Positions 19,692-43,524 of a stretch of 64,000 nt of DNA are shown piece after piece. The position numbers were made by a program, and so were the translations under genes. The notes beneath the pieces are model-generated. The model was not told the origin of the DNA. It made no database searches and saw nothing but the letters and a program-made list of their open reading frames with translations. The stretch comes from Skermanella pratensis (GTDB lineage: Bacteria; Pseudomonadota; Alphaproteobacteria; Azospirillales; Azospirillaceae): the NCBI RefSeq assembly GCF_008843145.1, contig NZ_CP030265.1, forward strand, positions 4,146,501 to 4,210,500. The letters run 5' to 3'. Each line of letters opens with the position of its first letter. Position 1 is the stretch's first letter.

Positions 19692-19754
19692 GGCTGCTGA
19701 GCTTCAGCAAGAATGTCGCGGAGCAAGCATTCGGCCGCATGCTATCGTGAACGC

Positions 19755-20288
19755 ATGAGATACCGACGCGACCGCACCGCGGGCGGAACCTACTTCTTCA
19801 CCGTGGTCACACACGAACGGCTGCCGATTCTCGCCAGTCCGGAGGCGGTCGATGCCTTGCGGTCGGCTTTTCGCAAGGTTCGTAGCGACCGCCCTTTCGT
19901 GATCAAAGCGATCGTCGTCCTGCCGGACCACCTGCATACCTTATGGACGCTGCCGGAAGGTGACGCCGACTATTCCATGCGGTGGCGGCTGATCAAACGT
20001 AGCTTCTCGGCGGCTGTCGACGCTCGGTCACGTGTCTGGCAGAACCGCTTCTGGGAACATCGGGTTCGTGACGAGACCGACTGGTGCCGTCACATCGACT
20101 ATATCCACTGGAATCCGGTCAAGCACGGTATCGTGAATGAAGCTTGGGAATGGCCTTATTCGAGCTTCAACACCCATGTGCAGCGTGGCACCTATCCAGC
20201 GGATTGGCACCCGATCATCGAACCGGCCCTCACGCCGCCGCGGGTTCCGGGTCCGGGGCACCCTGCCACTGCTCGAGCACGCCGTTGA
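19755..20288 (+). CDS. REP-associated tyrosine transposase (RAYT, TnpA-REP)
   Basis: A 177-aa Y1/HUH single-strand transposase of the IS200-like superfamily, the RAYT group thought to cut and move REP hairpins. It starts MRYRRDRTAGGTYFFTVV and has the HUH motif HLH at residues 59-61 (LPDHLHTLW) and the catalytic tyrosine at about residue 116 within DYIHWNP. Its neighbours support the call: two REP-like hairpins lie 64-158 nt upstream. None is visible downstream, where the last 59 nt overlap the convergent GNAT gene, so the final ~20 residues (Pro/Arg-rich) are antisense to GNAT and are probably an acquired tail. Confidence 0.9.
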   Translation: MRYRRDRTAGGTYFFTVVTHERLPILASPEAVDALRSAFRKVRSDRPFVIKAIVVLPDHLHTLWTLPEGDADYSMRWRLIKRSFSAAVDARSRVWQNRFWEHRVRDETDWCRHIDYIHWNPVKHGIVNEAWEWPYSSFNTHVQRGTYPADWHPIIEPALTPPRVPGPGHPATARARR

Positions 20289-25345: not shown

Positions 25346-25768
<423 letters not shown>

Positions 25769-25929
25769 CTTAATTAAGATTTTTCTAATTCAACTTTCAG
25801 GATGTTCCTGGCGGTCATGGGTTTTCATGGGCCGGAAGCTGGGACAATGATGGGACGTATCGGGATAATCCTGTGGACAAGCTGTTAGTGACTATTCCGC
25901 TAGATTTCCGAAGCCGGTTTTTCCAATCC

Positions 25930-25954
25930 GAGTCGGTCAATGATTCAAGGACTC
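25930..25954. promoter_or_regulatory. Cluster of three GANTC (CcrM-type) methylation sites
   Basis: GAGTC at 25930-25934, GATTC at 25942-25946 and GACTC at 25950-25954. GANTC is the target of CcrM, and methylation at such promoters affects GcrA-dependent transcription in other alphaproteobacteria. Action on the dcw operon here is inference. Confidence 0.45.
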
Positions 25955-26136
25955 ATCATTTGAATTCGCCCGATCGTTATAGGAACGAATAGTGAACGAA
26001 CTTCAGAAACGCTCTTAAGATTAACTTGATGTTTAGGTTCTCGCTAAAAAGCGTTGCATCCACAATCCAACCTTGAGGAAAGACGAACGCAGCCGCGAAA
26101 TTTCTTGATTCCAAAGGCCAATTACTGGCAACGGCA

Positions 26137-26166
26137 TTGACGGCCCATGAAATCCCATGTTATCCC
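26137..26166 (+). promoter_or_regulatory. Candidate mraZ (dcw operon) promoter
   Basis: TTGACG at 26137-26142 followed after 18 bp by TATCCC at 26161-26166. The MraZ boxes lie between and over these elements, an arrangement that fits autorepression. The -10 match is weak. Confidence 0.4.
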
Positions 26167-26168
26167 AT
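26143..26168 (-). promoter_or_regulatory. MraZ-binding repeats (three boxes)
   Basis: On the minus strand, TGGGA, TGGGA and TGGGC recur with exact 10-bp spacing (complement CCCA at 26144, 26154 and 26164). Known MraZ sites are TGGGN repeats separated by five bases upstream of mraZ, so this is a strong match. It predicts MraZ feedback on the operon. Confidence 0.75.
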
Positions 26169-26280: not shown

Positions 26281-26781
26281 ATGGCCATCTTCTTGTCCTC
26301 TTTCTTGAATAAGGTAGACAAGAAGGGCCGCGTGTCGGTGCCGGCGTCATTTCGTGGCGTGCTGGCCAAGGACTCCCCCGAAGGCGTTGCGTCCAGCGTG
26401 ATCGTGTTCCGCTCCCTACAGTTTTCTGCACTCGAAGCGTGTAGTCCGGAGCATATGGACAGGCTGGCCGAAACACTGGATCAAATGGATATTCCGCCGG
26501 AGGAGAAGGACCTCTTCCAGGCGACGATCTTCGCCGGCTCGATCCAGCTCGGGATCGACGCCGAGGGCCGGATCCTGATCCCCCAGGACATGCTGGATTA
26601 TGCCGGGATCACCGAGCAGGCCTCGTTCGTGGCCAACAACAAGACTTTCCAGATCTGGGAGCCGGCCGCCCACGCCGCCCGGATGGAAGAGGCGCGCAAG
26701 CTCAGCCGCGCCGCAGGGCTGTCGCTCAGCAGCATCAGCCTGTCGGGCCGCCGGCCAGCCGCCGCCCCGGCGAAGGAATAG
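26281..26781 (+). CDS. mraZ: Transcriptional regulator MraZ
   Basis: A 166-aa first gene of the dcw cluster. It has two AbrB-like MraZ motifs: VDKKGRVSVPASFR near residues 12-25 and DAEGRILIPQDML near residues 92-104. Rings of this protein bind TGGG repeats in the operon promoter, which are present at 26143-26168. A GAGGG ribosome binding site precedes the ATG. The C-terminal 20 residues are Ser/Pro/Ala rich. The next gene begins 9 nt after the stop. Confidence 0.96.
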   Translation: MAIFLSSFLNKVDKKGRVSVPASFRGVLAKDSPEGVASSVIVFRSLQFSALEACSPEHMDRLAETLDQMDIPPEEKDLFQATIFAGSIQLGIDAEGRILIPQDMLDYAGITEQASFVANNKTFQIWEPAAHAARMEEARKLSRAAGLSLSSISLSGRRPAAAPAKE

Positions 26782-26790
26782 GAGGGCGGC

Positions 26791-27750
26791 ATGGCATCGA
26801 CCAACGAACATGTCCCCGTCCTGCTGGAAGAGGTGGTGGCGGCCCTGGCTCCCCGGGACGGCGGCGTCTATGTGGACGGGACCTTCGGCCGCGGCGGCTA
26901 TGCCCGCGCGATCCTGGCCGCCGCGGACTGCACCGTCTGGGGGATCGACCGCGACCCCGCGGCGGTCGCCGCGGGCTCGGTCATGGCTGAGGAATTCCCC
27001 CATCGGTTGAACGTCATCGAAGGCCCGTTCGGCCGGATGGACGCGCTGCTGCGCGAGGCCGGGGTCGAGGGCGTCGACGGCGTCACGCTGGACCTGGGCG
27101 TCTCGTCGCCGCAGATCGACGACCCGGCGCGCGGTTTCTCGTTCCGCGCCGACGGGCCGCTCGACATGCGCATGGGAAATCATGGGATGACGGCCGCCGA
27201 CGCGGTCAATTCCCTGGGCGAGACCGAACTGGCCGACGTGATCTACCGCCTGGGCGAGGAGCGGATGTCCCGCCGGGTCGCCCGCGCGATCGTGGCCGCC
27301 CGCGCCGAACAGCCGATCGAGCGGACCGGCCGGCTGGCCGAGATCGTCCGGCGGGTGGTTCCGAAGAGCCGCGACGGCATCGATCCGGCGACCCGGACCT
27401 TCCAGGCGCTCCGGCTCTACGTCAACGACGAGCTGGGCGAGCTGGACCGCGGCCTCGCCGCCTCCGAGCGGCTGCTGCGCCCCGGCGGGCGGCTGGCGGT
27501 GGTCTCGTTCCACTCGCTGGAGGACCGCCAGGTCAAGGAATTCCTGCGCCGGCGGTCGGGCAACAGCCCGGCCCCGTCGCGTCACGCACCGGTGGAACGG
27601 ACGGCCGAAGCGGCGCCGACGTTCCGCCTGATCTCCCGCAAGCCGGTGACGCCCGGCGACACGGAACTCGTCAACAATCCCCGCGCCCGGTCAGCCCGGC
27701 TGCGCGCGGCCGAACGCACGAAGGCACCGGCCTTCGAGGAGGCAGCATGA
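26791..27750 (+). CDS. rsmH: 16S rRNA (cytosine(1402)-N(4))-methyltransferase
   Basis: A 319-aa SAM-dependent methyltransferase that modifies C1402 in 16S rRNA. It starts [12 protein letters not shown] and has the SAM motif [16 protein letters not shown] (residues 30-45), [16 protein letters not shown], and the late [14 protein letters not shown] motif typical of MraW/RsmH. A ribosome binding site (GGAGGG) is just upstream. The stop overlaps the ftsL start by 4 nt (ATGA). Confidence 0.97.
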
Positions 27751-28172
27751 TCAGCAAGTCCACGGTGATCTGGCTCGGTCTGGCGGGCCTGGCGAGCGGG
27801 GCATTGTTCCACACGAGCTATCGGGTGCAGGCGCTCGGCGAGGACTTGGCCGGGCTGAACCGCGCGATCATCCACGAACAGGAAGCCATTCAGATCCTGA
27901 AGGCCGAGTGGAGCTACATGAACGATCCGACCCGGATCGAGGAAATGGCGCGCCGCCACCTGGTGCTCGGCCCGACCGCAGCCGGGCAGATGATCGCCTC
28001 GGTCGAGACCATCCCGGCACGGCTGCATCCGGCCGACCCCAACGCGCCGCAGGGCCCCGCGCTGGTCGCCGGAACGGTTCCGATGCCGTCGCGCAAGCCG
28101 AGCGCCGGCAGCCTGCAGGCAAGCGCGCCGGCCGGTACCGTCGTGCTCGCCACCTACAAGGTGACGCGATGA
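27747..28172 (+). CDS. ftsL: Cell division protein FtsL
   Basis: A 141-aa bitopic protein of the FtsQLB complex. One N-terminal membrane helix ([19 protein letters not shown]) is followed by a coiled-coil/heptad stretch (about residues 28-60) and a variable periplasmic Pro/Ala-rich tail. FtsL is weakly conserved; the assignment rests on size, topology, the [19 protein letters not shown]-like segment and position between rsmH and ftsI. Overlaps both neighbours by 4 nt. Confidence 0.88.
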
Positions 28173-29923
28173 CCGACATCCACGCGTCACGCCACTGGCA
28201 CACCGACCGCGCCCAGGCGGCGACGGCGGCCGGCGACCACACCGCCGAGCGGCGCACGGCCGGTCGGGCCGCGCAGGCGCTGGAACAGGCGCGCAGCCGG
28301 CTGATGGTGACCGTCGCGATCTTCGCGCTCGCCTTCGGCGCTGTCGGCGTCAAGCTGGTCGACGCCACCGTGATGAGCCAGGGGGGTGACACGGGGCTGG
28401 CGCAGGCCGCCTCCGCCAATGCCATCCCGGCCAGCCGCGCCGACATCGTGGACCGCAACGGCGTGCTGCTGGCGAGCTCGCTGGCGACGGCGTCGCTGCA
28501 TGCCGACCCCAAGCTGGTGATCAACCCGCTGGAGGCGACGCAGAAGCTGACCTCCGTCCTGACCGACCTGGACTACCAGGACACCCTGGCCAAGCTGAAG
28601 AGCGACAAGCGGTTCGTCTGGATCCGACGGAACCTGTCGCCGCGCGAGCATTACGAGGTCAACCGGCTCGGCATCCCCGGCCTCTATTTCCAGCGCGAGG
28701 AGCGCCGGGTCTACCCGAACGCCAACCTGACCGCCCATGTCGTGGGCTTCACCGGCGTCGACAACAACGGCCTGATGGGGGTCGAGCAGTCGTTCGACAG
28801 CCGCCTGAGGTCGTCGAGCGAACCGGTCCAGCTCTCCCTGGACGTGCGCCTCCAGCACCTGGTCAAGCGGGAGCTCCAGAGTGCCGTGGACGAGTTCCAG
28901 GCCCTGGGCGGCGCCGGCATGATCATGGACGTCAAGACCGGCGAGGTCCTGGCGATGGTCTCGCTGCCGGACTTCGACCCCCACGTCCCGACCAACGACG
29001 AGAACGCGCGCTTCAACCGCAACACGCTCGGCGTGTACGAGATGGGCTCGACGTTCAAGATCTTCAATTCGGCCCTCGCCCTGGAATCGGGCAAGATCCG
29101 CATGGGCGACAGCTTCGACGCGACCAAGTCCGTCCGCGTCGGACGCTTCACGATCAGCGACTACCATGGCAAGAACCGCTGGCTGACCGTTCCCGAAGTC
29201 TTCATGTACTCGTCCAACATCGGCTCGGTCCGGATGGCGATGGAGGTCGGCACGCCGGGCCAGCGGGCGCTGATGGACAAGCTGGGCCTGCTCAGGCGGT
29301 CGCCGGTCGAGATCCCCGAGGTGGGGATGCCGATGGTGCCCCACCCGTGGCGCGAAGCCAGCACCATGACGATCTCCTTCGGGCACGGCCTGTCGGTCAG
29401 CCCGATCCAGATGGCCTCGGCCACCGCCGCAACGGTCAACGGCGGCCTGCTGCACCCGCCCACCCTGCTGAAGCGCAACCCCGGCGATCCGGTACCCGCG
29501 GAGCGCGTAATTTCGCCACAAACCTCCGACCAAATCCGCCGTCTGATGCGCCTGGTCGTGACCCAGGGCACGGCGACCGGAGCCGCCGCCCCCGGCTACG
29601 TGGTCGGCGGCAAGACGGGTACCGCGGAGAAGACCAGTGGGCGTGGCTATGCGAAGAAGGCTCTGTTGTCGTCGTTCATCGGCGCGTTCCCGATCCAGGA
29701 CCCCCGCTATCTGGTGATGGCGATGGTCGACGAGCCGAAGGGCAACAAGCGCACCTACGGCTACGCCACCGGCGGCTGGGTCGCGGCACCGCTGGCGGGC
29801 AGGATCATCCAGCAGATGGGGCCGCTGATGGGCATCAACCCGATCGACGAGAACCGGCCCGACATCCGCACGGCCACGGAAATCCATCTCAATCCCCGGG
29901 GAAGTACCCTTGCGTCTTACTGA
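28169..29923 (+). CDS. ftsI: Division-specific peptidoglycan transpeptidase FtsI (PBP3)
   Basis: A 584-aa septal transpeptidase anchored by one N-terminal membrane helix (about residues 46-66). The dimerisation domain carries RADIVDRNGVLLASS. The penicillin-binding domain has all three active-site motifs: Ser294 in STFK, SSN at 348-350 and KTGT at 482-485. ATG 28169 overlaps the ftsL stop. The 3' end overlaps the TTG start of murE by 14 nt. Confidence 0.97.
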   Translation: MTDIHASRHWHTDRAQAATAAGDHTAERRTAGRAAQALEQARSRLMVTVAIFALAFGAVGVKLVDATVMSQGGDTGLAQAASANAIPASRADIVDRNGVLLASSLATASLHADPKLVINPLEATQKLTSVLTDLDYQDTLAKLKSDKRFVWIRRNLSPREHYEVNRLGIPGLYFQREERRVYPNANLTAHVVGFTGVDNNGLMGVEQSFDSRLRSSSEPVQLSLDVRLQHLVKRELQSAVDEFQALGGAGMIMDVKTGEVLAMVSLPDFDPHVPTNDENARFNRNTLGVYEMGSTFKIFNSALALESGKIRMGDSFDATKSVRVGRFTISDYHGKNRWLTVPEVFMYSSNIGSVRMAMEVGTPGQRALMDKLGLLRRSPVEIPEVGMPMVPHPWREASTMTISFGHGLSVSPIQMASATAATVNGGLLHPPTLLKRNPGDPVPAERVISPQTSDQIRRLMRLVVTQGTATGAAAPGYVVGGKTGTAEKTSGRGYAKKALLSSFIGAFPIQDPRYLVMAMVDEPKGNKRTYGYATGGWVAAPLAGRIIQQMGPLMGINPIDENRPDIRTATEIHLNPRGSTLASY

Positions 29924-31382
29924 CCTCGCCTCCTCAGAGACCACCCCGGCCGCGCCGCTCCAGGCCCGCGATCCCCTGATCGCGGGCCTGACGAGCGATT
30001 CGCGTGCGGTGAAGCCGGGTTTTCTGTTCGCGGCCCTGCCGGGGAGCCGGGCCGACGGGCGGGCCTTCGTGGCCGACGCGGTGGCGCGCGGCGCGGTGGC
30101 GGTGCTGGGTCCGCCCGGCACGGTGCTGCCGGACGGGACGCCCGACGGCGTGGCGTTGATCGAGGACGAGAACCCCCGGCGCCGGCTGGCGCTGATGGCG
30201 GCCCGCTTCCACGGGCGCCAGCCGGCCCACGTGGCGGCAGTGACCGGTACCAACGGCAAGACCTCCACCGTGCAGTTCGCGCGCCAGCTCTGGGCCCTTC
30301 TGGGCCATCGGGCGGCCAGCCTGGGAACGCTCGGCATCACGGCGCCGGGGCTGGAGCGTTACGGCTCGCTGACCACGCCGGACACGGTGTCCCTGCACCA
30401 GGCGCTCGCCGAGCTTGCCGATGCCGGGATCGACCATCTCGCCATGGAGGCATCGAGCCACGGACTCGACCAGTACCGCCTGGACGGCGTGGCGATCGAA
30501 ACCGCAGGTTTCACAAATTTGTCACGCGACCATCTGGATTACCACGGCAGTATGGAAGCTTACCTCGCGGCCAAGTCGATGCTGTTCGACCGCATCCTGC
30601 CTCCCGGCGGGACGGCGGTGCTGAACGCGGACGCGCCCGAGTTCACCCATCTGTCAGAGCTGTGTTCGCGGCGTGGTCATCGCCTGATCGGCTATGGCAC
30701 ACAGGCGAAGGAGCTTGTCTTGCGCGACCTGATCCCCCTGCCCCACGGACAGCGCCTGAAGCTGACCGTGCTCGGCCGGGACCACGACATCGGCCTGCCG
30801 CTGGCCGGACGCTTCCAGTGCATGAACGCCCTGTGCGCGCTGGGCATGGCGATCGGCACCGGCACCGACGCCGACGAGGCGGCGGCGGCGCTCGAACGGC
30901 TGGGCGGCGTCCGCGGCCGGCTGGAGCTGGTCGCCCGCCACCCCTCGGGCGCCCCGATCTATGTGGACTACGCCCACACGCCCGACGCGCTGGAGACGGT
31001 GCTGAGGGCCCTGCGCCCCCACGCGGCGGAGCGGCTGGTGGCGGTGTTCGGCTGCGGCGGCGACCGCGACCGGGGCAAGCGGCCGGTCATGGGCGAGCTG
31101 GCGGACCGGCTGGCCGACCGGGCCATCGTGACCGACGACAATCCCAGGACCGAGGCGGCGGAGGCGATCCGGCGCGAGATCATGGCCGGCTGCCCGGGCG
31201 CCGAGGAGATCGGCGACCGCGCCGCGGCGATCCGCGCCGCCGTCCGGGACCTGGCCGAGGGCGACGTGCTGGTGATCGCCGGCAAGGGCCACGAGCAGGG
31301 CCAGATCGTCGGCACCGAGGTGCGGCCGTTCGACGACGCCGAAGAAGCGCGCGCCGCCCTGCGGGAGGCCCCGGTCCGATGA
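29910..31382 (+). CDS. murE: UDP-MurNAc-tripeptide synthetase MurE
   Basis: A 490-aa ATP-dependent ligase that adds the third stem residue. The ATP motif GTNGKTS is at residues 113-119. The DNPR motif at 410-413 is the mark of meso-diaminopimelate specificity, so the peptidoglycan is of the DAP type. The start is a TTG inside the end of ftsI; no in-frame ATG fits better before the conserved N-terminus. The stop overlaps the murF ATG by 4 nt. Confidence 0.96.
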   Translation: MRLTDLASSETTPAAPLQARDPLIAGLTSDSRAVKPGFLFAALPGSRADGRAFVADAVARGAVAVLGPPGTVLPDGTPDGVALIEDENPRRRLALMAARFHGRQPAHVAAVTGTNGKTSTVQFARQLWALLGHRAASLGTLGITAPGLERYGSLTTPDTVSLHQALAELADAGIDHLAMEASSHGLDQYRLDGVAIETAGFTNLSRDHLDYHGSMEAYLAAKSMLFDRILPPGGTAVLNADAPEFTHLSELCSRRGHRLIGYGTQAKELVLRDLIPLPHGQRLKLTVLGRDHDIGLPLAGRFQCMNALCALGMAIGTGTDADEAAAALERLGGVRGRLELVARHPSGAPIYVDYAHTPDALETVLRALRPHAAERLVAVFGCGGDRDRGKRPVMGELADRLADRAIVTDDNPRTEAAEAIRREIMAGCPGAEEIGDRAAAIRAAVRDLAEGDVLVIAGKGHEQGQIVGTEVRPFDDAEEARAALREAPVR

Positions 31383-32899
31383 CCCAAGCTCCGATGATCC
31401 AAGCCCCCGTCCTCTGGACCGCCGGCGATGTCGCGGCGGCGACCAACGGCACCCTGCACGGCCCCGCCGGCGCACCGGTCTGGCAGGCGACCGGCGTGTC
31501 GATCGACAGCCGCACGATCCGGCCGGGCGACCTGTTCATCGCGCTGAAGGGGCCGAACTTCGACGGCCACCGCTACGTGGCGCAGAGCCTGGCGGCCGGC
31601 GCCGCGGCCGCCCTGGTGTCGCACCGCCCGGACGGCGTCGGGCCGGACGCACCGCTGGTCATGGTCGAGGACACCTTCGCCGCCCTCCAGGACCTGGGCT
31701 CGGTGGCGCGGCTGCGCACCGACGCGAAGATCGTCGCGGTGACCGGGTCGGTCGGCAAGACCAGCACCAAGGAGGCGCTGGGCACCTGCCTGTCGGCATT
31801 GGCGCCGACCTTCGCCACGGCGGGAAGCCTGAACAACCATTGGGGCGTGCCGCTGAGCCTGGCGCGCATGCCGGCCGACTGCACCTACGCGGTGTTCGAG
31901 CTGGGCATGAACCATGCCGGCGAGATCGGGCCGCTGTCCCGCCAGGTCCGCCCCGACGTCGCCGTGATCACGACCGTGGAGGCCGTCCACCTGGAGCACT
32001 TCCCCTCGGTCGAGGCGATCGCCGACGCCAAGGCGGAGATCTTCGAGGGCATGGCGCCCAACGGCGCCGTGGTCCTGAACCGCGACAACCCCCATTACGC
32101 CCGGCTGGTCGCCGCCGCCCGCACCCGCGGCCTGTCGCGCATCCTGGGCTTCGGCAAGGCCGACGACGCCAGCGCCCGGCTGACCGACTGCTCGATCCAC
32201 GCGACCTGCAGCGCGGTCAACGCGGTGATCAAGGGCGAGGCGCTGCAGTATTGCCTGGCGCTTCCCGGCCGCCACCACGTGATGAACAGCCTGGCCGTGC
32301 TGCTGGCGGTCCGCGCGCTGGGCGGCGACGTCGCCGCGGCGGCGCGGGCGATGGCGACGCTGAAGCCGATCAAGGGACGGGGGGCCCGCCGGCGCGTGCA
32401 GCTGGCCCAGGGCGCCCTGACCGTGATCGACGAGAGCTACAACGCCAGCCCGGTCTCCATGGAGGCGAGCTTCCAGGTGCTGGCCAAAGGGGACCCGGGC
32501 GTCGGCGGGCGGCGCATCGCCGTGCTGGGCGACATGCTGGAACTGGGCGAGCGCTCGCCCCTGCTGCACGCGGCCCTGGCCGAACCGCTGAAGGCCGCCT
32601 CGGTGGACCTGGCGTTCTGCGCCGGCCCCGACATGAAGCACCTGTTCGACAAGCTGCCGGCCCCGATGCGCGGCGCCTGGGCGCCGGACAGCGCGGCGCT
32701 GGCCCCCCTGGTGGCCGGGGCGGTGCGCGCCGGCGACGTCCTGATGGTCAAGGGGTCGGCCGGCAGCCGCATGGCCACCGTGGTCGAAGCGGTCGCGGCG
32801 CTGGATGCCGGTGCCGACGCCCATTCCGATCCAACCTCCCGAACGACTCCCGACGAAATTCCCGACGACAAGGCGCAACGCGCCGCACGGCAGGGCTGA
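31379..32899 (+). CDS. murF: UDP-MurNAc-pentapeptide synthetase MurF
   Basis: A 506-aa ligase that adds D-Ala-D-Ala to UDP-MurNAc-tripeptide. It shows the Mur ligase layout: N-terminal UDP domain (GVSIDSRTIRPGDLFIAL), the ATP motif GSVGKTS at 123-129, FELGMNHAGEI, and the C-terminal DESYNASPVSM and LGDMLELG segments. Length is slightly above E. coli (452 aa) because of a hydrophilic C-terminal tail. It lies 12 nt before mraY. Confidence 0.96.
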   Translation: MTQAPMIQAPVLWTAGDVAAATNGTLHGPAGAPVWQATGVSIDSRTIRPGDLFIALKGPNFDGHRYVAQSLAAGAAAALVSHRPDGVGPDAPLVMVEDTFAALQDLGSVARLRTDAKIVAVTGSVGKTSTKEALGTCLSALAPTFATAGSLNNHWGVPLSLARMPADCTYAVFELGMNHAGEIGPLSRQVRPDVAVITTVEAVHLEHFPSVEAIADAKAEIFEGMAPNGAVVLNRDNPHYARLVAAARTRGLSRILGFGKADDASARLTDCSIHATCSAVNAVIKGEALQYCLALPGRHHVMNSLAVLLAVRALGGDVAAAARAMATLKPIKGRGARRRVQLAQGALTVIDESYNASPVSMEASFQVLAKGDPGVGGRRIAVLGDMLELGERSPLLHAALAEPLKAASVDLAFCAGPDMKHLFDKLPAPMRGAWAPDSAALAPLVAGAVRAGDVLMVKGSAGSRMATVVEAVAALDAGADAHSDPTSRTTPDEIPDDKAQRAARQG

Positions 32900-32911
32900 G
32901 GCGATTCCACG

Positions 32912-33997
32912 ATGCTTTATCACCTGCTGTTTCCCCTGGCGGATGAGTTCATCATCTTCAATCTGTTCCGGTACATCACGTTCCGGACGGGCGGAGCGAT
33001 CCTGACCGCGTCGGTGATCAGCTTCGTCTTCTTCCCGACCCTGATCCGCTGGCTGAAGTCCAAGCAGGGCGAGGGGCAGCCGATCCGCAGCGACGGGCCG
33101 GAAACCCATCAGAAGAAGAAGGGCACGCCGACCATGGGCGGCCTGATGATCCTGATCGCGGTGATGATCAGCACGCTGCTGTGGGCCGACCTGACCAACC
33201 TGTTCGTCTGGGTCGTCCTGCTGGTGACCATAGGGTTCGGCCTGATCGGCTTCGGCGACGACTTCCTGAAGCTGACCAAGCGCAACACCAAGGGCCTGTC
33301 GGGCAAGCTGAAGCTGGCCGGACAGATCGGCACCGGCGGCGCCGCGGCCCTGATCATCGCGGTGTTCGGGCAGGACACCGTGTCCCATGGGCTGGCCATC
33401 CCCTTCATGAAGGACCTGCTGATCGACCTCGGCTGGTTCTTCGTGCCGATGGCGGTGTTCGTCATGGTGGGGGCCAGCAACGCGGTCAACCTGACCGACG
33501 GGCTCGACGGGCTGGCGATCGTGCCGGTGATGATCGCGGCGAGCTGCTTCGGCCTGATCGCGTACCTGGTCGGCAACACGGTCTTCGCCAACTACCTGCA
33601 GATCCACCACGTGCCGGGAACCGGCGAACTGGCGGTGTTCTGCGGCGCCATGGTGGGAGCCGGCCTGGGCTTCCTGTGGTTCAACGCGCCGCCGGCGATG
33701 GTCTTCATGGGCGACACGGGTTCGCTGTCGATCGGCGGCGCGCTCGGCGCCATCAGCGTCATCACCAAGCATGAGCTGGTGCTGGCGATCATCGGCGGCC
33801 TGTTCGTGCTGGAGACCGTGTCGGTCATCGTCCAGGTCGCCTCCTACAAGCTGACCGGCAAGCGGGTCTTCCGCATGGCGCCGCTGCACCATCACTTCGA
33901 GAAGAAGGGCTGGGCCGAGCCGACCGTCGTGATCCGATTCTGGATCATCGCCGTGGTGCTGGCGCTGGTCGGCCTGTCCACCCTGAAGCTGCGGTGA
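32912..33997 (+). CDS. mraY: Phospho-MurNAc-pentapeptide transferase MraY
   Basis: A 361-aa integral membrane enzyme that makes lipid I on undecaprenyl phosphate. About ten membrane helices are visible. Signature segments are [12 protein letters not shown], the Asp-rich loop [24 protein letters not shown] and [12 protein letters not shown], and the cytoplasmic HHHFEKKGW motif. Length is normal. The stop overlaps the murD GTG by 4 nt. Confidence 0.97.
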
Positions 33998-35400
33998 CGC
34001 CATTGATCGACCTCAAGCACCTCCGGGGAAAGCGCTACGCGGTCATGGGCCTCGCCAAATCGGGACTGGCCACGGCAAGGGCGCTGATGGACGCCGGCGT
34101 GGAGATCCTGGCCTGGGACGACGGCGAGGCCGGCCGCGCCGCCGCGGCCGCCGCCGGCATCCCGCTGACCGACCTGAATACGGCCGACCTTTCCGGGGTC
34201 GAGGCGCTGGTGCTGTCCCCCGGCATCCCCCACACCTTCCCGAAGCCCAACGCGGTCGCTGCGCGGGCGAAGGATGCCGGCCTGCCCATCGTCGGCGACA
34301 TCGAGCTGCTGTACCGGGCGCAGCCCAAGGCGGCCTATGTCGGCATCACCGGGACCAACGGCAAATCCACCACGACGGCGCTGATCGGGCACATCCTGGC
34401 GCTCGCCGGCCGGAAGATCCAGGTCGGCGGCAATCTCGGAACGCCGGTCCTGAGCTTCGAGCCCCTGGGCGAGGACGGCATTTACGTGCTGGAGATGTCC
34501 TCGTACCAGCTGGAGCTGGTGCCCTCCGTCGGGTTCAACGTCGCGATCCTGCTCAACGTCACCCCCGACCATCTGGACCGCCACGGCGGCATGGACGGCT
34601 ACGTCGCCGCCAAGCGCCGGATCTTCCAGCACCCGAAGCGCTCGCACACCGCCATCGTCGGCGTGGACGACGCGCAGTGCCGGGCCGTGTTCGACGGGAT
34701 GGAGCATACCGTCCCCTGCGCCGTGATTCCCGTCTCGGCGGAGCGGCCGGCCAAGGGGATCTACGTCCTGGACGGCAAGCTGTTCGACGGCGGCGCGGAC
34801 CCGGTCATCGACCTCTCGGGGATCGCCGCCTTGCCCGGCCGGCACAACTGGCAGAACGCCGCGGCGGCCTTCGCGGCGGCCCGCGCCTGCGGCGTGCCGC
34901 TCGACACCATCCTGGAGGGGCTGCGCAGCTTTCCCGGCCTGGCGCACCGCCAGCAGATGGTGGCGGTGCGCGACGGCGTCCGGTTCGTCAACGACAGCAA
35001 GGCGACCAATGCCGATGCCGCGGCCAAGGCGCTGGCCTGCTACGACCCGGTCTACTGGATCATCGGCGGTCAGCCCAAGGAGGGCGGCCTGGACGGCCTG
35101 GAATCCTTCATGCCGCGCATCCGCCACGCCTTCCTGATCGGGCAGGCGATGGAGCGATTCGCCGCGTGGCTCGACGGCCGGGGCGTCGCCTATACCCGGT
35201 GCGGAACCCTGGAAGCCGCCGTGCCGGCCGCGGCGGCGATGGCGCGGGAAGAGGCGCTGCCGGGCGCCGCGGTGCTGCTGTCGCCGGCCTGCGCCTCCTG
35301 GGACCAGTTCAGGAGCTTCGAACACCGCGGCGAGGTTTTCGCGGCCCTGGTCGCGGCATTGGTGAGTGACGTATCGGTGAAGAAGGAAGTCGCGGGATGA
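33994..35400 (+). CDS. murD: UDP-MurNAc-L-alanine:D-glutamate ligase MurD
   Basis: A 468-aa ligase adding D-Glu. The N-terminal Rossmann-like domain begins [14 protein letters not shown]. The ATP motif [11 protein letters not shown] is near residues 114-124, followed by [26 protein letters not shown] and the C-terminal [12 protein letters not shown] and [13 protein letters not shown] start overlaps the mraY stop; its own stop overlaps the ftsW ATG. Confidence 0.97.
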
Positions 35401-36521
35401 CCGCTTTCGCCCGGACCGACCATTCCATATTCGGCAAGTGGTGGTGGACGGTGGACCGCTGGACGCTGGCGGTGCTGGCGGTCCTGATGGGCCTCGGCAT
35501 CGTGCTGGTCCAGGCGGCGAGCCCGGCCGTCGCCGAACGCATCGGGCTGGACAATTTCCACTTCGTCCAGCGCCATATCCTGATGCTGCTGCCGGCCTGC
35601 ATGGTGATGGTCGGCGTGTCGCTCCTGAGCCTGCGCGGGGTCCGCCGGACCGCCGTGGTGGCCTTCATCTTCTTCACGATCCTGCTGGCGCTGACCATGG
35701 TCATCGGGTTCGAGATCAAGGGTGCCCGCCGCTGGATCCATGTCCCGGGCCTGTCGATCCAGCCGTCGGAGTTCGTCAAGCCGGCCTTCGCGGTGGTCGC
35801 CGCCTGGCTGTTCGCCCACGGCAAGACCAGCGCGCGGTTCCCCGGCGCGGTCATCTCGATCATGCTGTACCTGATGATCGTCGGGCTGCTGATGATGCAG
35901 CCGGACCTGGGCATGACCTTCGTGGTCTCGGTGGTGTGGTTCTGCCAGTTCTTCCTGGCGGGGCTGCCGATCGTGCTGGTCGCCATCCTGGGCGTGCTGG
36001 GCATCACCGGCCTGGTCGGCGCCTACATGCTGTTCCCGCACGTGTCCAGCCGCATCGACCGCTTCCTAGACCCGGCGGCCGGCGACAACTACCAGGTGAC
36101 CCGGTCGCTGGAGGCGTTCCAGAACGGCGGCGCCTTCGGCACGGGCCCCGGCCAGGGCAGCATCAAGATGATGCTTCCGGACGCCCATGCCGACTTCATC
36201 TTCGCGGTCGCAGGCGAGGAACTGGGTCTGTTCTGGTGCCTCGTCTTGATCGCGCTGTTCGCCTTCATCGTGATCCGCGGCTTCCTGCGGGTGATGCGCG
36301 ACGACAACCTGTTCGTCGTGCTGGCGGTCACCGGACTGCTGACCCAGTTCGGCCTCCAGGCCTGGATCAACATGGCGTCGAGCCTGCACATGATGCCGAC
36401 CAAGGGAATGACGCTGCCTTTCATCAGCTACGGCGGGTCGTCGCTGCTGGCCCTGGGCTTCGGCATGGGAATGGTGCTGGCGCTGACCCGCAAGCGCTTC
36501 GGCGGAGGAGACGGGGCATGA
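35397..36521 (+). CDS. ftsW: Peptidoglycan glycosyltransferase FtsW
   Basis: A 374-aa SEDS polymerase of the division machinery with about ten membrane helices. Signature segments are GARRWIHVPGLSIQPSEFVK, LLMMQPDLGMT, the RSLEAFQNGGAFGTGPGQG loop and the C-terminal PTKGMTLPFISYGGSS. It works with FtsI to build septal wall from lipid II. The stop overlaps the murG start by 4 nt. Confidence 0.97.
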   Translation: MTAFARTDHSIFGKWWWTVDRWTLAVLAVLMGLGIVLVQAASPAVAERIGLDNFHFVQRHILMLLPACMVMVGVSLLSLRGVRRTAVVAFIFFTILLALTMVIGFEIKGARRWIHVPGLSIQPSEFVKPAFAVVAAWLFAHGKTSARFPGAVISIMLYLMIVGLLMMQPDLGMTFVVSVVWFCQFFLAGLPIVLVAILGVLGITGLVGAYMLFPHVSSRIDRFLDPAAGDNYQVTRSLEAFQNGGAFGTGPGQGSIKMMLPDAHADFIFAVAGEELGLFWCLVLIALFAFIVIRGFLRVMRDDNLFVVLAVTGLLTQFGLQAWINMASSLHMMPTKGMTLPFISYGGSSLLALGFGMGMVLALTRKRFGGGDGA

Positions 36522-37693
36522 CCATGACCGATGCGACACCAGGCCCCGTCGTCCTGGCCGCCGGTGGCACCGGCGGGCACATGTTCCCGGCGGAAGCGCT
36601 GGCCCGCGAGCTGCTGGCGCGCGGCCACCGGGTGGTCCTGGTCACCGACCGGCGCGGCAAGGCGTTCGGCGACGCCCTGCCGGAGGTCGAGGTCCATCGC
36701 ATCCGCGCGTCGAGCTTCGGCAGCGGCGTGATGGGCAAGCTGCGCGGCGCCTTCGAGTTGGGCCTGGGGGCGATCCAGGCGCGCCGCCTGATCGCGGCGC
36801 TGCGGCCTTCCGTCGTGGTGGGCTTCGGCGGGTATCCCTCGGTTCCGACGGTCTTGATGGCGCAGCGGGCTGGCGTGCCCACCGTGCTGCACGAGCAGAA
36901 CGCCGTGCTCGGCCGGGCCAACCGTATGCTGGCCCCCGGCGCCGCGCGGATCGCCACCTCGTTCGCTGCCGTGTCGGCGGTCAAGCCGGCCGACCGGGCG
37001 AAGCTGGTACCGACCGGCAACCCGGTGCGCCCGGGTGTCACGGCCGTGCGCGACCTGCCCTATCCGGCGCTGGAGCCGGGCGGCGAGCTCCGGCTGCTGG
37101 TGGTCGGCGGCAGCCAGGGAGCCCGGATCTTCAGCGAGATCGTGCCCGCGGCCCTGGCGCTGCTGCCGGACGTGCTGCGGCGGCGCATCCGCATCGCCCA
37201 GCAGTGCCGGCCCGAGGATCTGGAGGCGGCGAAGGCCGCGTTCGCCGAAGCGGGTGTCGATGCCGAGCTGTCCAGCTTCTTCCGCGACGTGCCGGACCGG
37301 CTGGCGGCCTGCCATCTCGCCGTCTGCCGGTCGGGCGCCTCGACCGTCGCCGAGCTGGCCGCTGCCGGCCGGCCGGCCGTGCTGGTGCCTTACCCGTTCG
37401 CCATGGACGACCACCAGACCGCCAATGCCCAGGCCGTCGCCGATGCCGGCGGCGCCTGGCTGATGCCCCAGCCGGCCTTCACGCCGAAGGCGCTGGCGGA
37501 CCGGCTGGAAGCGCTGCTCGACCTGCCCGCCACCCTGGGCAAGGCGGCCGAGGCGGCCCGAGCGCGCGGCGCCGCGGACGCCGCCTCGCGCCTGGCGGAC
37601 ATCGTCATCGGCGCCGCGAAGGGCGCCGCTTCACCCCAAAGCGACCGGGCCAATGCCGGCGCCGACCGTTACTCCACCGAGGCCGCTGAATAA
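36518..37693 (+). CDS. murG: UDP-GlcNAc:lipid I N-acetylglucosaminyltransferase MurG
   Basis: A 391-aa peripheral membrane glycosyltransferase that makes lipid II. It has the N-terminal glycine-rich loop [37 protein letters not shown], and the C-terminal donor site with [11 protein letters not shown] and [20 protein letters not shown] 36518 overlaps the ftsW stop; ATG 36524 is an alternative. It shares one base with the murC start. Confidence 0.97.
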
Positions 37694-39123
37694 TGAGAGC
37701 CCTGCCCCTGTCCATCGGGACGATCCACTTCGTCGGTATCGGCGGGATCGGCATGAGCGGCATCGCCGAGGTGCTGCGGAACCTGGGCTATTCCGTCCGC
37801 GGGTCGGACATCGCCGACAGCGCCAACGTCAAGCGCCTCCGCGCCCTGGGGATTCCGGTCGAGATCGGCCATCGCGGCGAGAATCTGGCCGACGCCTCGG
37901 TCGTGGTGATCTCCTCCGCGGTCAAGAAGGACAATCCCGAGGTCGTCGCGGCCAGGAACGCCCTGATCCCGGTGGTCCGCCGGGCCGAAATGCTGGGCGA
38001 GCTGATGCGGCTGAAATGGTCGATCGCGATCGGCGGCACCCACGGCAAGACCACGACCACCAGCATGGTCGGCACCCTGCTGGAAGGCGCCGGGCTGGAC
38101 CCGACCGTGATCAACGGCGGCATCATCAACGCCTACGGCACCAACACCCGCCTGGGCGCCGGCGACTGGATGGTGGTCGAGGCGGACGAGAGCGACGGCA
38201 CCTTCACCAAGCTGCCGGCGCTGATCACCGTCGTGACCAACATCGACCCCGAGCATCTGGACCACTACGGCACCTTCGACGGGGTGCGCTCGGCATTCGA
38301 CAGCTTCGTCCAGAACATCCCGTTCTACGGCTTCGCGGCGCTGTGCATCGACCATCCCGAGGTTCAGGCGATGATCCCGCGCGTCGCCGACCGCCGGATC
38401 GTGACCTACGGCTTCAGCCCGCAGGCGGACGTGCGCGCGGTGGACGTAGTGACCGGGACCGACGGCGCCCGCTTCAACGTCGCCCTGAGTGACCGCGTCG
38501 TCGGGGAGCCGCGGACGATCGAAGGCATCCACCTGCCGATGTTCGGGCTGCACAACGTGCAGAACAGCCTGGCCGCCATCGCGGTCGGCAACGAGATGGG
38601 CATCGACGGCGACAAGATCCGGTCCAGCTTCGCCCGTTTCTCGGGTGTCAAGCGGCGCTTCACCAAGACGGGGGAGAGCAACGGCGTGACCGTGATCGAC
38701 GATTACGGCCACCATCCGGTGGAGATCGCCGCCGTGCTGAAGGCGGCCCGGACCGCCGGGACCGGCCGGACCATCGCGGTGGTCCAGCCGCACCGCTACA
38801 GCCGCCTGCACAGCCTGTTCGAGGATTTCTGCGCCTGCTTCAACGACGCCGACACCGTCCTGGTCGCCGACGTCTATGCCGCCGGCGAGCAGCCGGTCGA
38901 GGGCGCCGACCGGGACGGCCTGGTCGAGGGGCTGCGCATGCGCGGCCACCGCCAGGTGCTGCCGCTGCCGTCGCCGGAAGCCCTGCCGTCCATGGTCCGC
39001 GACTTGGCCCAGCCCGGCGACTTCGTCGTCTGCCTGGGCGCCGGCAACATCACCGCGTGGGCCAATGCCCTGCCGGGCGAGCTGGACAAGCTCTACGGCA
39101 CCGAGGGAGGCAAGAAACGATGA
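37693..39123 (+). CDS. murC: UDP-N-acetylmuramate:L-alanine ligase MurC
   Basis: A 476-aa ligase that adds the first stem residue. It opens [17 protein letters not shown], then has the ATP motif [13 protein letters not shown] near residues 114-126, [23 protein letters not shown], and the late [10 protein letters not shown] and FQPHRYSR-type (VQPHRYSR) motifs. Length is normal. The stop overlaps the murB ATG by 4 nt. Confidence 0.97.
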
Positions 39124-40094
39124 CGGCGGTCGCTCCCATGCACCATCACGCGCCCCACCTGATCGACCGCCTGCCGGCTGTGCGCGGACGGCTGACCGCG
39201 AACGCGCCGCTGGCGAACGTCACCTGGTTCCGCGTCGGCGGCCCGGCGGAGGTGATGTTCAAGCCGGCCGATGCCGACGACCTGGCCGCGTTCCTGGCAG
39301 GCTGCCCGGCCGACGTGCCGGTGACCGTGATCGGCGTCGCGTCGAACCTGCTGGTGCGCGACGGCGGCGTGCCCGGCGTCGTGGTCCGGCTCGGACGCGC
39401 CTTCGCCGAAGCAGTGGCGGACGGCCTGGAGATCCGCGCCGGTGCCGCGGCGCTGGATCTGAACGTCGCCGGGGCGGCGCGTGACGCCGGCATCGCCGGG
39501 CTGGAGTTCCTGTCGGGCATTCCCGGCACGATCGGCGGCGCGCTCCGCATGAATGGCGGCGCCTATGGCCGCGAGTTGTCCGATGTGGTGGTCTCCGCCA
39601 CCGCCCTCGACCGGCAAGGGCGGGAGCACGTGCTGGACCGCGAGGCGCTCGGCCTGACCTACCGGCACTGCGCCGTTCCGGAGGACTGGATCTTCACCGG
39701 CGCCACCCTGCGCGGGCATCCCGGCGATCCCGCCGGAATCGGCCGGCGCATGCACGAGATCTCCTCGGCGCGGGCGGAAAGCCAGCCGGTGCGGGCACGG
39801 ACCGGCGGCTCGACCTTCGCCAACCCGCCGGGCGAGAAGGCCTGGGCGCTGATCGACCGCGCCGGCTGCCGGGCCCTGATGATCGGCGGCGCGCAGGTGT
39901 CGGAAAAGCACTGCAACTTCCTGCTCAACCTGGGGGCCGCCACGGCGGACGACCTGGAGTCCCTGGGCGAGGAGGTGCGGCGACGCGTCTACGAAACGTC
40001 GGGCATAGAACTGCGCTGGGAGATCCGGCGGATCGGCGTCCCGGCACCGGGCAAATCCATACCGGGGAGCCCCTTCCTGGGGAGAACGCCATGA
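39120..40094 (+). CDS. murB: UDP-N-acetylenolpyruvoylglucosamine reductase MurB
   Basis: A 324-aa FAD enzyme that completes UDP-MurNAc. FAD-binding segments are [29 protein letters not shown] and [19 protein letters not shown]. The active-site region includes [12 protein letters not shown] and the C-terminal [18 protein letters not shown] 39120 overlaps the murC stop; the preceding open frame is out of family. The stop overlaps the ddlB start by 4 nt. Confidence 0.96.
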
Positions 40095-41035
40095 ACGCGC
40101 CCCTGAACAAACCGAAGCCGCAGCATGTCGCCGTCCTGCTGGGCGGCTGGTCGGCCGAACGGGAGGTCTCCCTGGTCAGCGGCGCCGCCGCGGCCCGGGC
40201 GCTGCGGGAGCGCGGCTACCGGGTGACCGAGATCGACGTCTCCCGCGACCTGAACGCGCTGATGGCGGCCCTGACCCCGCGCCCCGACGTGGTTTTCAAT
40301 GCGCTGCACGGGCGCGGCGGCGAGGACGGGACGATCCAGGGCGTGCTCGACATCCTGGGCCTGCGCTACACCCATTCCGGCATGGTGGCCTCCGCCGTCG
40401 CCATGGACAAGACGCTGACCAAGCGGCTGCTGGAGAGCGTCGGCATCCGCTCGCCCAAGGGGATGGTGGCGACGCGGCAGCAGGTGCTGGACGGCGACAT
40501 CATGCCCGCCCCCTATGTGCTGAAGCCCAACAACGAAGGGTCGAGCGTCGGCATCCGGATCGTCCGGCCGGGCGACAACCGCGACCCGGTCGACGCCGAG
40601 AGCTGGAACCACGGCGAGACGGTCCTGATCGAGCAATACATTCCCGGCCGGGACCTTACAGTCGCGGTGATGGGCGACCGCGCCCTGACCGTGACCGAGA
40701 TCCGGCCCCATTCCGGCTTCTATGACTATTCGGCGAAGTACACCGACGGTCGGGCTACGCATCTCGTCCCGGCTCCCGCCCCGCAGGCCGTTCTGGACGA
40801 GGCCATGCGGATGGCCCTGCTCGCGCACCGGACTTTGGGCTGTGCCGGAGTGAGCCGCAGCGACTTCCGTTGGGACGATGCAATTAAGGATAACGCGGGA
40901 GTTTATTTCCTGGAAATTAACACACAGCCCGGTATGACCCCCCTGTCTTTGGTACCCGAACAGGCGGCGTATCTGGGTATACCGTTTGCCGATCTGGTCG
41001 TCTGGATGGTGGAGAACGCCGCATGTCACGTGTGA
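40091..41035 (+). CDS. ddlB: D-alanine:D-alanine ligase
   Basis: A 314-aa ATP-grasp enzyme that supplies D-Ala-D-Ala for MurF. Segments seen are [16 protein letters not shown] at the N-terminus, [27 protein letters not shown], and the metal-binding [11 protein letters not shown] near the C-terminus. Length is typical of DdlB. The last 13 nt overlap ftsQ. Confidence 0.96.
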
Positions 41036-41931
41036 ACAAGCCGACCCTCTGCGCGCCCCGCGACCTCCGCGCCCGCACGGCGGAACGCGCGCGCAGCGCG
41101 ACCCAGAAGGCCACGGAAAAGGCGAACCGCCGCCGTTCCTGGCCGCGCTGGACCGAGAAGGCGATGCGCCTGGGACTGATCGCGTTCCCGATCCTGCTGG
41201 CCGGCAGCGCCGGGACCTGGGCGTACCAGACCGGGTGGTTCGGCACGATGGCGGACCGGACGACCGCCGCCCTGATCGACCTGACGGTGGATGCCGGGCT
41301 GGAGGTCCAGGAGGTGCTGGTCGAAGGCCGGGTCGAGACCGACCGCAGCGCCGTGATGGCGGCGATCCAGGTCAAGCGCGGCGACCCGATCCTGCAATTC
41401 GACCCGGAGGCGGCGCGCGCCGGCCTGGAGCGGCTGCGCTGGGTCGCCACGGCCACCGTCGAGCGGCGGCTTCCCGACACCGTGTTCGTCAAGCTGGACG
41501 AGCGCCGGCCGATGGCGCTGTGGCAGCGCGACGGCAAGCTGGCGCTGATCGACCGCGACGGCGAGGTGCTGACCGAGCGCGAGCTGGGCCGCTACAACAA
41601 CCTGCTCCAGATCATCGGCGCCGATGCGCCGAAGCACGCGCCGGAACTGCTGGGGCACCTGGCGACCGTCCCGGCGCTGTACGAACGGGTCAATGCCGCC
41701 AGCCGCGTCGGCGGCCGGCGCTGGGACCTGCATCTGGCCAACGGCGTCGTGGTCCGCCTGCCGGAGAGCGACATCGGCGGCGCCCTGAGGCATCTGGCCG
41801 AACAGGAGTCGAAACAACCGGTGCTTGACCGCGACATCGTCGCCGTCGACCTCCGCCTGCCGGACCGTCTGGTGATCCAGACTTCGACGGCAGCGGCACA
41901 ACGTCGCCGTGTGCCCGAGGAAAAGATCTAA
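41023..41931 (+). CDS. ftsQ: Cell division protein FtsQ
   Basis: A 302-aa bitopic divisome protein. The basic cytoplasmic N-terminus is rich in Arg/Lys, with one membrane helix around residues 50-66 (GLIAFPILLAGSAGTWAY). A POTRA domain begins near residue 90 (LEVQEVLVEGRVETDRSAVM), followed by the FtsQ domain (WVATATVERRLPDTVFVKLDERRP). It overlaps the end of ddlB by 13 nt. A 135-bp gap separates it from ftsA. Confidence 0.94.
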   Translation: MSRVNKPTLCAPRDLRARTAERARSATQKATEKANRRRSWPRWTEKAMRLGLIAFPILLAGSAGTWAYQTGWFGTMADRTTAALIDLTVDAGLEVQEVLVEGRVETDRSAVMAAIQVKRGDPILQFDPEAARAGLERLRWVATATVERRLPDTVFVKLDERRPMALWQRDGKLALIDRDGEVLTERELGRYNNLLQIIGADAPKHAPELLGHLATVPALYERVNAASRVGGRRWDLHLANGVVVRLPESDIGGALRHLAEQESKQPVLDRDIVAVDLRLPDRLVIQTSTAAAQRRRVPEEKI

Positions 41932-41991
41932 ATCGGTAACAGACTAACCGAAATAGGTAATACATACCAAATGCAGTAAGGCAATCGCCGT

Positions 41992-42019
41992 TTGAAATAC
42001 TGTATCTTGGGATGATAAA
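41992..42019 (+). promoter_or_regulatory. Candidate ftsA promoter
   Basis: TTGAAA at 41992-41997 and GATAAA at 42014-42019, separated by 16 bp, in the 135-bp ftsQ-ftsA gap. This gap is AT-rich, while nearly all upstream gene pairs overlap, so an extra promoter for ftsA-ftsZ is plausible. Confidence 0.4.
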
Positions 42020-42066
42020 GTGATTACTGCGTTAGGCCGAGGCCTGAAGGGACTGCGAGCGAAACG

Positions 42067-43335
42067 ATGGCCTTCAACGGGAGCAAGAGAGTGAAGCGAC
42101 CGGTGCGCGGTGGGGTAATCGCCGCGCTGGACGTCGGCACAACCAAGATCTGCTGCTTCATCGCGCGGGTCGAGGACGGCGGCGCCTTGCGGATCGTCGG
42201 GATCGGCCATCAGGTTTCACGCGGCCTCCGGGCCGGCACCATCGTCGACATGGACGCGGCGGAACAGGCGATCGGCACGACCGTCCATGCCGCGGAGCAG
42301 ATGGCGGGCGAGACGATCCGCGAAGTGCTGGTCAACATCTCCGGCGGCCAGCCGATCTCCCAGACGACCAATGTCGAAATCCCGATCGGCGGGCACGAGG
42401 TCGCGGACGCCGACGTGCGCCGGGCCCTGGCCCAGGCGCGGCAGTTCCAGGGCAGCGCCGACCAGGAGCTGATCCACTCCATCGCGGTCGGCTATTCGAT
42501 GGACGGCAACCGCGGCATCCGCGACCCGCGCGGCATGTTCGGCGAGAAGCTGGGCGTTCAGCTCCACACCGTGACGGCCGGGTCGAGCGCGGTGCGCAAC
42601 CTCGCCACCTGCGTCGCCCGCTGCCACCTGGATATCGAGAGCTTCGTCGTCTCCCCCTTCGCCAGCGGCTTGGCGGCCCTGGTCGAAGACGAGATGGAGC
42701 TGGGTTGCACGCTGATCGACATGGGCGGCGGCACCACGACCATCTCGGTCTTCTTCGACGGCAAATGCGTCTATACCGACTGCGTGCCGGTCGGCGGCAG
42801 CCACGTGACCAACGACATCGCGCGCGGCCTGACCACGCCCGTGGCCCATGCCGAGCGGATGAAGACCCTGTACGGCAGCGCCATCGCCAACGTCGCCGAC
42901 GAGCGCGAGATCATCGACGTGCCCCAGGTCGGCGAGGACGAGCCGGCCCAGGCCAACCACGTGCCGAAATCCCTTCTGGTCGGCATCATCCAGCCGCGGC
43001 TGGAAGAGATCTTCGAGCTGGTCCGCGCCCGCCTGGAAGTCAGCGGCATGGGCAAGGTGGCCGGCCGCCGGGTCGTGCTGACGGGCGGAGCCAGCCAGCT
43101 GCCGGGCACGCGCGAGCTGGCCCAGCTGATCCTGGACAAGCAGGTCCGGCTCGGCCGGCCGATGCGGATCGACGGGCTGGCGGAAGCCACCGGCGGTCCC
43201 GCCTTCTCGACGGCGGCGGGGCTGCTGGCCTTCGCGGTGCAGAGCCACGCGGAGCTGCCGGGCTTCAGCGCCGAGGCGGAGCCGCCGAAACATCTTTGGG
43301 GACGCGTGAGCCTCTGGCTGAAGGAGAACCTATGA
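42067..43335 (+). CDS. ftsA: Cell division protein FtsA
   Basis: A 422-aa actin-like ATPase that tethers FtsZ to the membrane. The phosphate-1 motif is AALDVGTTKICCFIARV near the N-terminus, followed by VLVNISGGQPISQTTNVEI, the phosphate-2 motif LIDMGGGTTTISVF, and the adenosine motif VVLTGGASQLPGTREL. A C-terminal amphipathic helix ([13 protein letters not shown]) is present for membrane binding. The TGA overlaps a possible 52-aa ORF. Confidence 0.97.
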   Translation: MAFNGSKRVKRPVRGGVIAALDVGTTKICCFIARVEDGGALRIVGIGHQVSRGLRAGTIVDMDAAEQAIGTTVHAAEQMAGETIREVLVNISGGQPISQTTNVEIPIGGHEVADADVRRALAQARQFQGSADQELIHSIAVGYSMDGNRGIRDPRGMFGEKLGVQLHTVTAGSSAVRNLATCVARCHLDIESFVVSPFASGLAALVEDEMELGCTLIDMGGGTTTISVFFDGKCVYTDCVPVGGSHVTNDIARGLTTPVAHAERMKTLYGSAIANVADEREIIDVPQVGEDEPAQANHVPKSLLVGIIQPRLEEIFELVRARLEVSGMGKVAGRRVVLTGGASQLPGTRELAQLILDKQVRLGRPMRIDGLAEATGGPAFSTAAGLLAFAVQSHAELPGFSAEAEPPKHLWGRVSLWLKENL

Positions 43336-43490
43336 GCCGGGGCCAGGAACAGTCGACAAAGCGGAACAGCGCGCCGCGCGGATGCCGGGATAGAGACGCC
43401 CGGCCCCGTGAAAGCGACCGGACACGACGGGCGATATGCAGGCCGGCAATGACCGGCGGCCTGAAAACCAACATGAATTCATGGAATTGA
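43332..43490 (+). CDS. Possible small ORF between ftsA and ftsZ (52 aa)
   Basis: An ATG at 43332 overlaps the ftsA TGA (ATGA), the same coupling used throughout this operon, and opens a 52-codon frame that ends 35 nt before ftsZ. The predicted peptide is very basic (many Arg) and has no recognisable domain. It may be a chance reading of a leader or regulatory spacer. Confidence 0.22.
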
Positions 43491-43504
43491 ATTCGGGCGA
43501 ATTC
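43472..43504. promoter_or_regulatory. Clustered GAATT motifs upstream of ftsZ
   Basis: Four GAATT motifs occur in 30 bp (43475, 43484, 43489, 43499), starting with the perfect palindrome CATGAATTCATG (43472-43483). They lie 21 nt before the ftsZ start. They may be an operator or RNA element; no regulator is assigned. Confidence 0.3.
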
Positions 43505-43524
43505 GAAGGGAACTGGAGGCTGTC

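Follow-up and report, generated by a model that had tools for sequence, protein, structure and literature searches.

A putative LexA operator paired with a GANTC site upstream of mraZ in Skermanella pratensis and its relatives

MraZ autoregulates the division and cell wall (dcw) cluster in Escherichia coli and other bacteria. Division timing by CcrM and GcrA is known in Caulobacterales and is described as not conserved beyond that order (PMC7987155). In support of such control, genes with a conserved promoter GANTC are more often misregulated without CcrM (PMC3973325), GcrA prefers methylated sites and binds in a methylation-dependent manner in Caulobacter, where GANTC changes cut the activity of several promoters by 60–80% (PMC3667746), and activation by GcrA at the extended motif YGAKTCK has been put forward as a hypothesis (PMC7987155). 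For the response to DNA damage, the Caulobacter LexA motif is quoted as GTTC-N7-GTTC (PMC12700426), and a CtrA site lies upstream of mraZ in Sinorhizobium meliloti (PMC4414408). Here, we describe the gap between rnpB and mraZ in a 64,000-nucleotide stretch of the Skermanella pratensis chromosome (hereafter the window; contig NZ_CP030265.1, positions 4,146,501 to 4,210,500), in which GANTC sites, a LexA-type box, and MraZ-type repeats precede the dcw cluster. A preliminary description had drawn attention to three clustered GANTC sites, while the more interesting finding of our sequence comparisons is a widespread LexA-type box before mraZ and, in the family, its fixed pairing with a GcrA-type site.

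The box, GAAC-N7-GAAC, is the complement of GTTC-N7-GTTC, and the genome has both lexA and recA, whose upstream regions carry GAACCAAACTAGAAC and GTTCCCTTTATGTTC with the same GAAC/GTTC-N7 repeat, of which 790 kb sampled from the chromosome hold 21 in total. The genome belongs to the Skermanella group by its named relatives, from which the family name Azospirillaceae is also taken, and 82 family genomes were searched (an order-level search returned the same 82), 81 with mraZ being used and one without a mraZ match (G067) being excluded. With at most one mismatch, the box lies between about −255 and −365 of mraZ in 69 of these 81 genomes, and it is exact in 56, as against 0–2 genomes for other spacings and 0–10 for control words (AACG 10/81, ACAG 6/81). 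Beyond the family, a non-random set of 87 of 163 matches was compared, comprising 27 loci given by the search and 60 picked by hand, mostly from larger genomes. The box was found at N7 before mraZ in 51 of these class regions, vs 0–5 for nine other spacings from N3 to N12 and 0–3 for eleven control words at N7. Its position is also restricted, with 52 of 54 class boxes between −420 and −230 (positions in the 27 search-given loci assume a full 1500-base flank), and in one class genome (L155), it is the exact complement of the recA box of S. pratensis. The box before mraZ is probably a LexA operator. Neither this box nor its GANTC pairing before mraZ was reported in the titles and abstract openings listed by searches of one open-access library, while earlier LexA-regulon papers may list such a site; a study of the SOS response in Caulobacter (PMC12700426) mentions neither mraZ nor rnpB in its main text. 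Separately, the sequence TGATTCG, which fits YGAKTCK, stands directly against the LexA-type box before the recA of this genome (L140), and, given this recA upstream region, mraZ may not be the only gene with a GcrA-type site beside an SOS box.

In the family, a GANTC starts 51–53 bp before the box in 54 of the 69 boxed genomes and in 7 of 12 genera. When the count is restricted to exact boxes, the pair is present in 49 of 56 genomes, spread over 5 of 9 genera. The pair occurs in genera g1 (5/5), g2 (1/1), g3 (44/45), g4 (1/4), g5 (1/2), g6 (1/1), and g9 (1/1); it is missing from the single boxed genomes of g7, g8, g10, and g13 and from the 6 boxed genomes of g12, and the 6 genomes of g11 are boxless. 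With 45 of the 69 boxed genomes in the single genus g3, the genus-weighted pairing score was 5.7 for GANTC, and none of seven control palindromes exceeded 2.0. These controls were allowed the same freedom of choice as the −53 to −51 interval, which had been picked after inspection; their best intervals covered at most 17 genomes (TCNGA; 14 for GTNAC and AGNCT) and at most 3 genera. Further, 50 of the 54 paired GANTC match YGAKTCK, vs 289 of 1211 (24%) in the sampled genome. Across 16 diverged copies, which were selected for having the pair and thus agree at GANTC itself by construction, a G follows the site in 13, and N is only T or G. The 39 bp between site and box are identical at 28% in these copies, i.e., at chance level, so the spacing is kept without the intervening sequence. 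A −10 element at a shared distance after site 1 was hinted at by eye in the largest genus and was rejected, with no column there reaching 70% in the diverged copies. In the 500 bp before mraZ, GANTC has a genus mean of 5.4 per kb, the highest of eight palindromes of the same composition (TCNGA reaches 4.3), and of the 81 genomes only G070 is free of GANTC across the 900 bp examined.

The three GANTC sites noted in the preliminary description (GAGTC, GATTC, and GACTC within 25 bp) were found exactly where it had placed them (Table 1), with start-to-start spacings of 12 and then 8 bp. Their distances to the mraZ start codon (ATG, 26281) are 351, 339, and 331 bp, and the likely mraZ promoter is ~180 bp downstream of them, which puts them farther from the operon than that description implied in its title. 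Its remark that GANTC is uncommon holds for the window, where 73 occur vs 294 expected from dinucleotide shuffles, a four-fold depletion such as is reported for CcrM bacteria (PMC3973325). A triple within 25 bp arose in 19 of 5000 dinucleotide shuffles of the rnpB–mraZ gap (a local frequency of ~0.004, uncorrected for having searched the whole window) and in none of 40 stretches sampled from this chromosome, which together gave 790 kb of unmasked sequence with 1211 GANTC (~1.5 per kb); at this GANTC density, ~0.05 triples would be expected per 64 kb. When the span is widened to 40 bp, the sample holds three triples, all copies of one repeated sequence (L099, L123, and L133; three GANTC within 37 bp) that is probably part of a mobile element. 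The clustering before mraZ is unusual, but taken alone only moderately so.

Among close relatives, a related-locus search gave five loci, a Clostridia metagenome-assembled genome (MAG; L013) and two distant MAGs (L011 and L012) being left out of the counts. Of the 5 Skermanella genomes, 4 have the full triple, each site at its corresponding position; the fifth, S. aerolata, retains site 1 alone, with an additional GANTC 18 bp upstream of that site. S. stibiiresistens preserves the three sites at 12 of 12 defining bases, between flanks identical at 22 of 40 (the 40 bp before) and 15 of 28 positions (the 28 bp after). In S. aerolata, where 9 of 12 are kept, only site 1 is better preserved than the flanks (23/40 and 17/28). 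The second and third sites are genus-level additions, and across the family one site alone is kept.

The corresponding regulators are encoded in the genome. The 385-residue ccrM product has N6_N4_Mtase and RAMA domains and matches CcrM as its best NCBIfam model at 609 bits (below the model cut-off of 830), and the 128-residue gcrA product matches GcrA of Pfam at 158 bits (cut-off 26.9) and of NCBIfam at 158 bits (below the cut-off of 280). A DUF1153 protein, which family we take to be SciP, is also encoded. The cell-cycle regulator family gene trcR, which the preliminary description had offered as a pointer to dcw control, is indeed in the window (2335–3039, minus strand; PF06242, 3e-62), but at 23 kb away it is no evidence for control of the mraZ promoter.

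On balance, we lean towards reading the gap as a composite mraZ/dcw control region made up of a CcrM/GcrA site, a LexA operator, and a MraZ operator, an arrangement which suggests that the division genes here respond to both chromosome replication and DNA damage. More tentatively, and as a possibility that we rate a little short of probable, the LexA operator before mraZ would be ancestral and widespread in Alphaproteobacteria and would in Azospirillaceae have come to stand at a fixed distance from a CcrM/GcrA site, so that one promoter reads replication state (through methylation) and DNA damage (through LexA) together.

Our comparisons show the sites, how they are conserved and spaced, and that the genome has ccrM, gcrA, and lexA; from these we infer the methylation, binding, promoters, and direction of regulation in the following model. 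CcrM would methylate site 1 (CGAGTCG), and the methylated site would then let GcrA with sigma-70 activate a distal promoter near 25977–25997, whose transcript would run into mraZ. LexA, at its box starting 53 bp downstream of site 1, would repress this distal promoter until DNA damage, while MraZ would repress the proximal promoter via its own operator. Replication of the locus would leave the GANTC sites hemimethylated, and output would change after fork passage, with the two extra Skermanella sites raising the methylation dependence of the same element. On the 5.87-Mb chromosome, ~1.5 Mb separate the locus from parS, and it would therefore be replicated well after initiation and be fully methylated until then. 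The earlier suggestion that methylation may tie the dcw cluster to replication timing is partly supported. Neither of the two outcomes that it had named as refuting occurred, as ccrM and gcrA are present and the sites are conserved in close relatives, but the triple is confined to genus level, and what the family keeps is one site linked to a LexA-type box, which that description did not note.

Several points weigh against the composite control region as drawn here. Neither site 2 nor site 3 fits YGAKTCK, and S. aerolata has lost both; 6 of 13 family genera are without the GANTC–box pair, and of 51 boxed regions outside the family only 4 have a GANTC 48–56 bp ahead of the box (3 at 51–53 bp, two of these from one genus). 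The distal promoter is a weak point of the model, and the promoter and terminator scan gave neither a rnpB terminator nor a standard promoter (−35/−10 pair) at the GANTC sites, its single promoter-like match (25841–25869) lying before them. In Caulobacter, a study of transcription start sites counted GANTC only up to 50 bp upstream of the start and found that GANTC between −10 and −35 have a timing of their own (PMC4287350). Finally, GcrA division targets are described as not conserved outside Caulobacterales, and GcrA of Brevundimonas as having no preference for the extended motif (PMC7987155).

Of the rival explanations, the one that survives best holds that the LexA operator is the working part, and that the GANTC sites are mostly passengers tolerated in the intergenic DNA of CcrM bacteria, the triple having arisen by drift in an AT-rich gap. 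The gap (513 bp) has 48% GC, which is AT-rich for this DNA, and its dinucleotide shuffles average 2.6 GANTC, at least four anywhere in it being ordinary (1245/5000); the box is also wider spread than the pair among the class regions. Against it stand a fixed spacing and an extended motif in 7 genera, where seven control palindromes give no comparable signal, and the retention of all three sites amid diverged flanks in S. stibiiresistens; we consider this explanation rather unlikely. Less likely still, CGAGTCG or CGATTCG could be the site of another regulator that happens to include GANTC, with methylation incidental or blocking. It would fit the conserved bases that reach past GANTC and the restriction at N in the diverged copies, but the extension is close to the YGAKTCK described for GcrA-activated sites (PMC7987155), and we regard a different regulator as improbable.

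The Caulobacter origin is a place where GANTC, DnaA, and CtrA sites cluster. That the AT-rich gap, with its DnaA-box-like and CtrA-box-like sequences, is itself a replication origin is highly improbable, being disfavored by all four parS-like sites found, at 5.64–5.67 Mb and thus 1.5 Mb away, and by the minimum of the cumulative GC skew (a weak skew), which falls at the last sampled stretch, 5.72 Mb, and not at 4.17 Mb.

Table 1. Features of the rnpB–mraZ gap and its borders (window positions)
Feature	Position	Strand	Basis and conservation
rnpB (RNase P RNA), upstream border of the gap	25349–25767	+	Rfam RF00010, 307 bits
Distal MraZ-box-like pair TGGG-N6-TGGG after rnpB	25818–25831	+	Pattern scan; 3/5 Skermanella
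DnaA-box-like TTGTCCACA, 1 mismatch to TTATCCACA	25872–25880	−	Pattern scan; inside a block invariant in 5 Skermanella
GANTC site 1	25930–25934		GAGTC within CGAGTCG, fits YGAKTCK; LexA-type box 53 bp downstream; retained in much of the family
GANTC site 2	25942–25946		TGATTCA, outside YGAKTCK; 4/5 Skermanella
GANTC site 3	25950–25954		GGACTCA, outside YGAKTCK; 4/5 Skermanella
TTATAG, possible −10 adjoining the LexA-type box	25977–25982	+	Inference; TTATA invariant in 5 Skermanella; without a good −35
Putative LexA-type operator GAAC-GAATAGT-GAAC	25983–25997	+	Sole exact one in the window; 5/5 Skermanella, much of the class
CtrA-box-like TTAA-N7-TTTA	26021–26035	+	Pattern scan; invariant in 5 Skermanella
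Fourth GANTC (TTGATTCC)	26107–26111		Invariant in 5/5 Skermanella
Likely mraZ promoter TTGACG-N17-TTATCC	26137–26165	+	Inference from sequence and conservation; missed by the promoter scan
MraZ-type operator, CCCA each 10 bp (26144, 26154, 26164)	26144–26167	−	Pattern scan; overlaps the likely mraZ promoter
mraZ, first dcw gene	26281–26781	+	PF02381 above cut-off; NCBIfam MraZ models best, below own cut-offs
dcw cluster: rsmH, ftsL-like, ftsI-like penicillin-binding protein, murE, murF, mraY, murD, ftsW, murG, murC, murB, ddl, ftsQ, ftsA, ftsZ	26791–45342	+	Gene order used in part to name murF and murG; ftsL from a DivIC match below cut-off

The MraZ-type and DnaA-like elements of the window were identified with the usual consensus motifs, and the CtrA consensus is quoted as TTAA-N7-TTAA in PMC4287350. 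At least one CCCA-N6-CCCA lies between the LexA-type box and mraZ in 63 of 64 regions (49 from the class and 15 from the family). Many family genomes have a second MraZ-box-like pair, in either orientation, far upstream of the mraZ promoter, which could allow looping. In genus g3, 23 of 45 genomes have two facing DnaA-type boxes (e.g., TGTGGATAACTTTATCCACA) directly downstream of the LexA-type box and ~285–296 bp before mraZ (L062 and others), while the Skermanella window has a single DnaA-like box, placed upstream of the LexA-type box. In several genera, a TTGA-type motif ~11 bp before TTACT or ATACT precedes the mraZ promoter (by eye; 26105–26127 in the window), a spacing unlike that of a normal −35/−10 pair. 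A small LexA-controlled open reading frame between box and mraZ was considered and rejected, the longest reading frames in the 64 regions averaging 28.5 codons vs 35.2 in base-shuffled sequence; no peptide common to these frames was seen by eye in the 64 regions beyond close relatives. No known RNA was found in the gap up to E = 1 apart from the RNase P end. Elsewhere in the window, a 191-residue reading frame (19713–20288, plus strand) resembles by eye a repetitive extragenic palindrome (REP)-associated transposase and is a candidate for one.

Compared with known systems, the locus resembles the MraZ autoregulation of dcw in that regularly spaced CCCA repeats overlap the likely mraZ promoter, and it differs in the distal second repeat. 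It resembles the Caulobacter division promoters under CcrM and GcrA (ftsZ, mipZ, and ftsN; PMC3973325 and PMC3667746) in having both regulators, conserved GANTC upstream of division genes, and, at site 1 but not at sites 2 and 3, a fit to YGAKTCK; unlike them, the Skermanella site stands before mraZ, 350 bp from the start codon, and is paired with a LexA-type operator. If the reading holds, a GcrA-type site that much of another family keeps ahead of its entire dcw cluster would be a counter-example to timing of this kind in Caulobacterales only. The box has the same direct repeat and spacing as the alphaproteobacterial LexA operators (GTTC-N7-GTTC; PMC12700426), including those before the lexA and recA of this genome, but unlike operators at repair genes this putative operator precedes a division cluster. 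If it is such an operator, then, being found in more than half of the examined class genomes, it would link SOS and division at the operon level, beside inhibitors such as SidA, with DNA damage acting directly on the division and cell wall cluster itself. Within this locus, the LexA part appears more novel than the GANTC triple.
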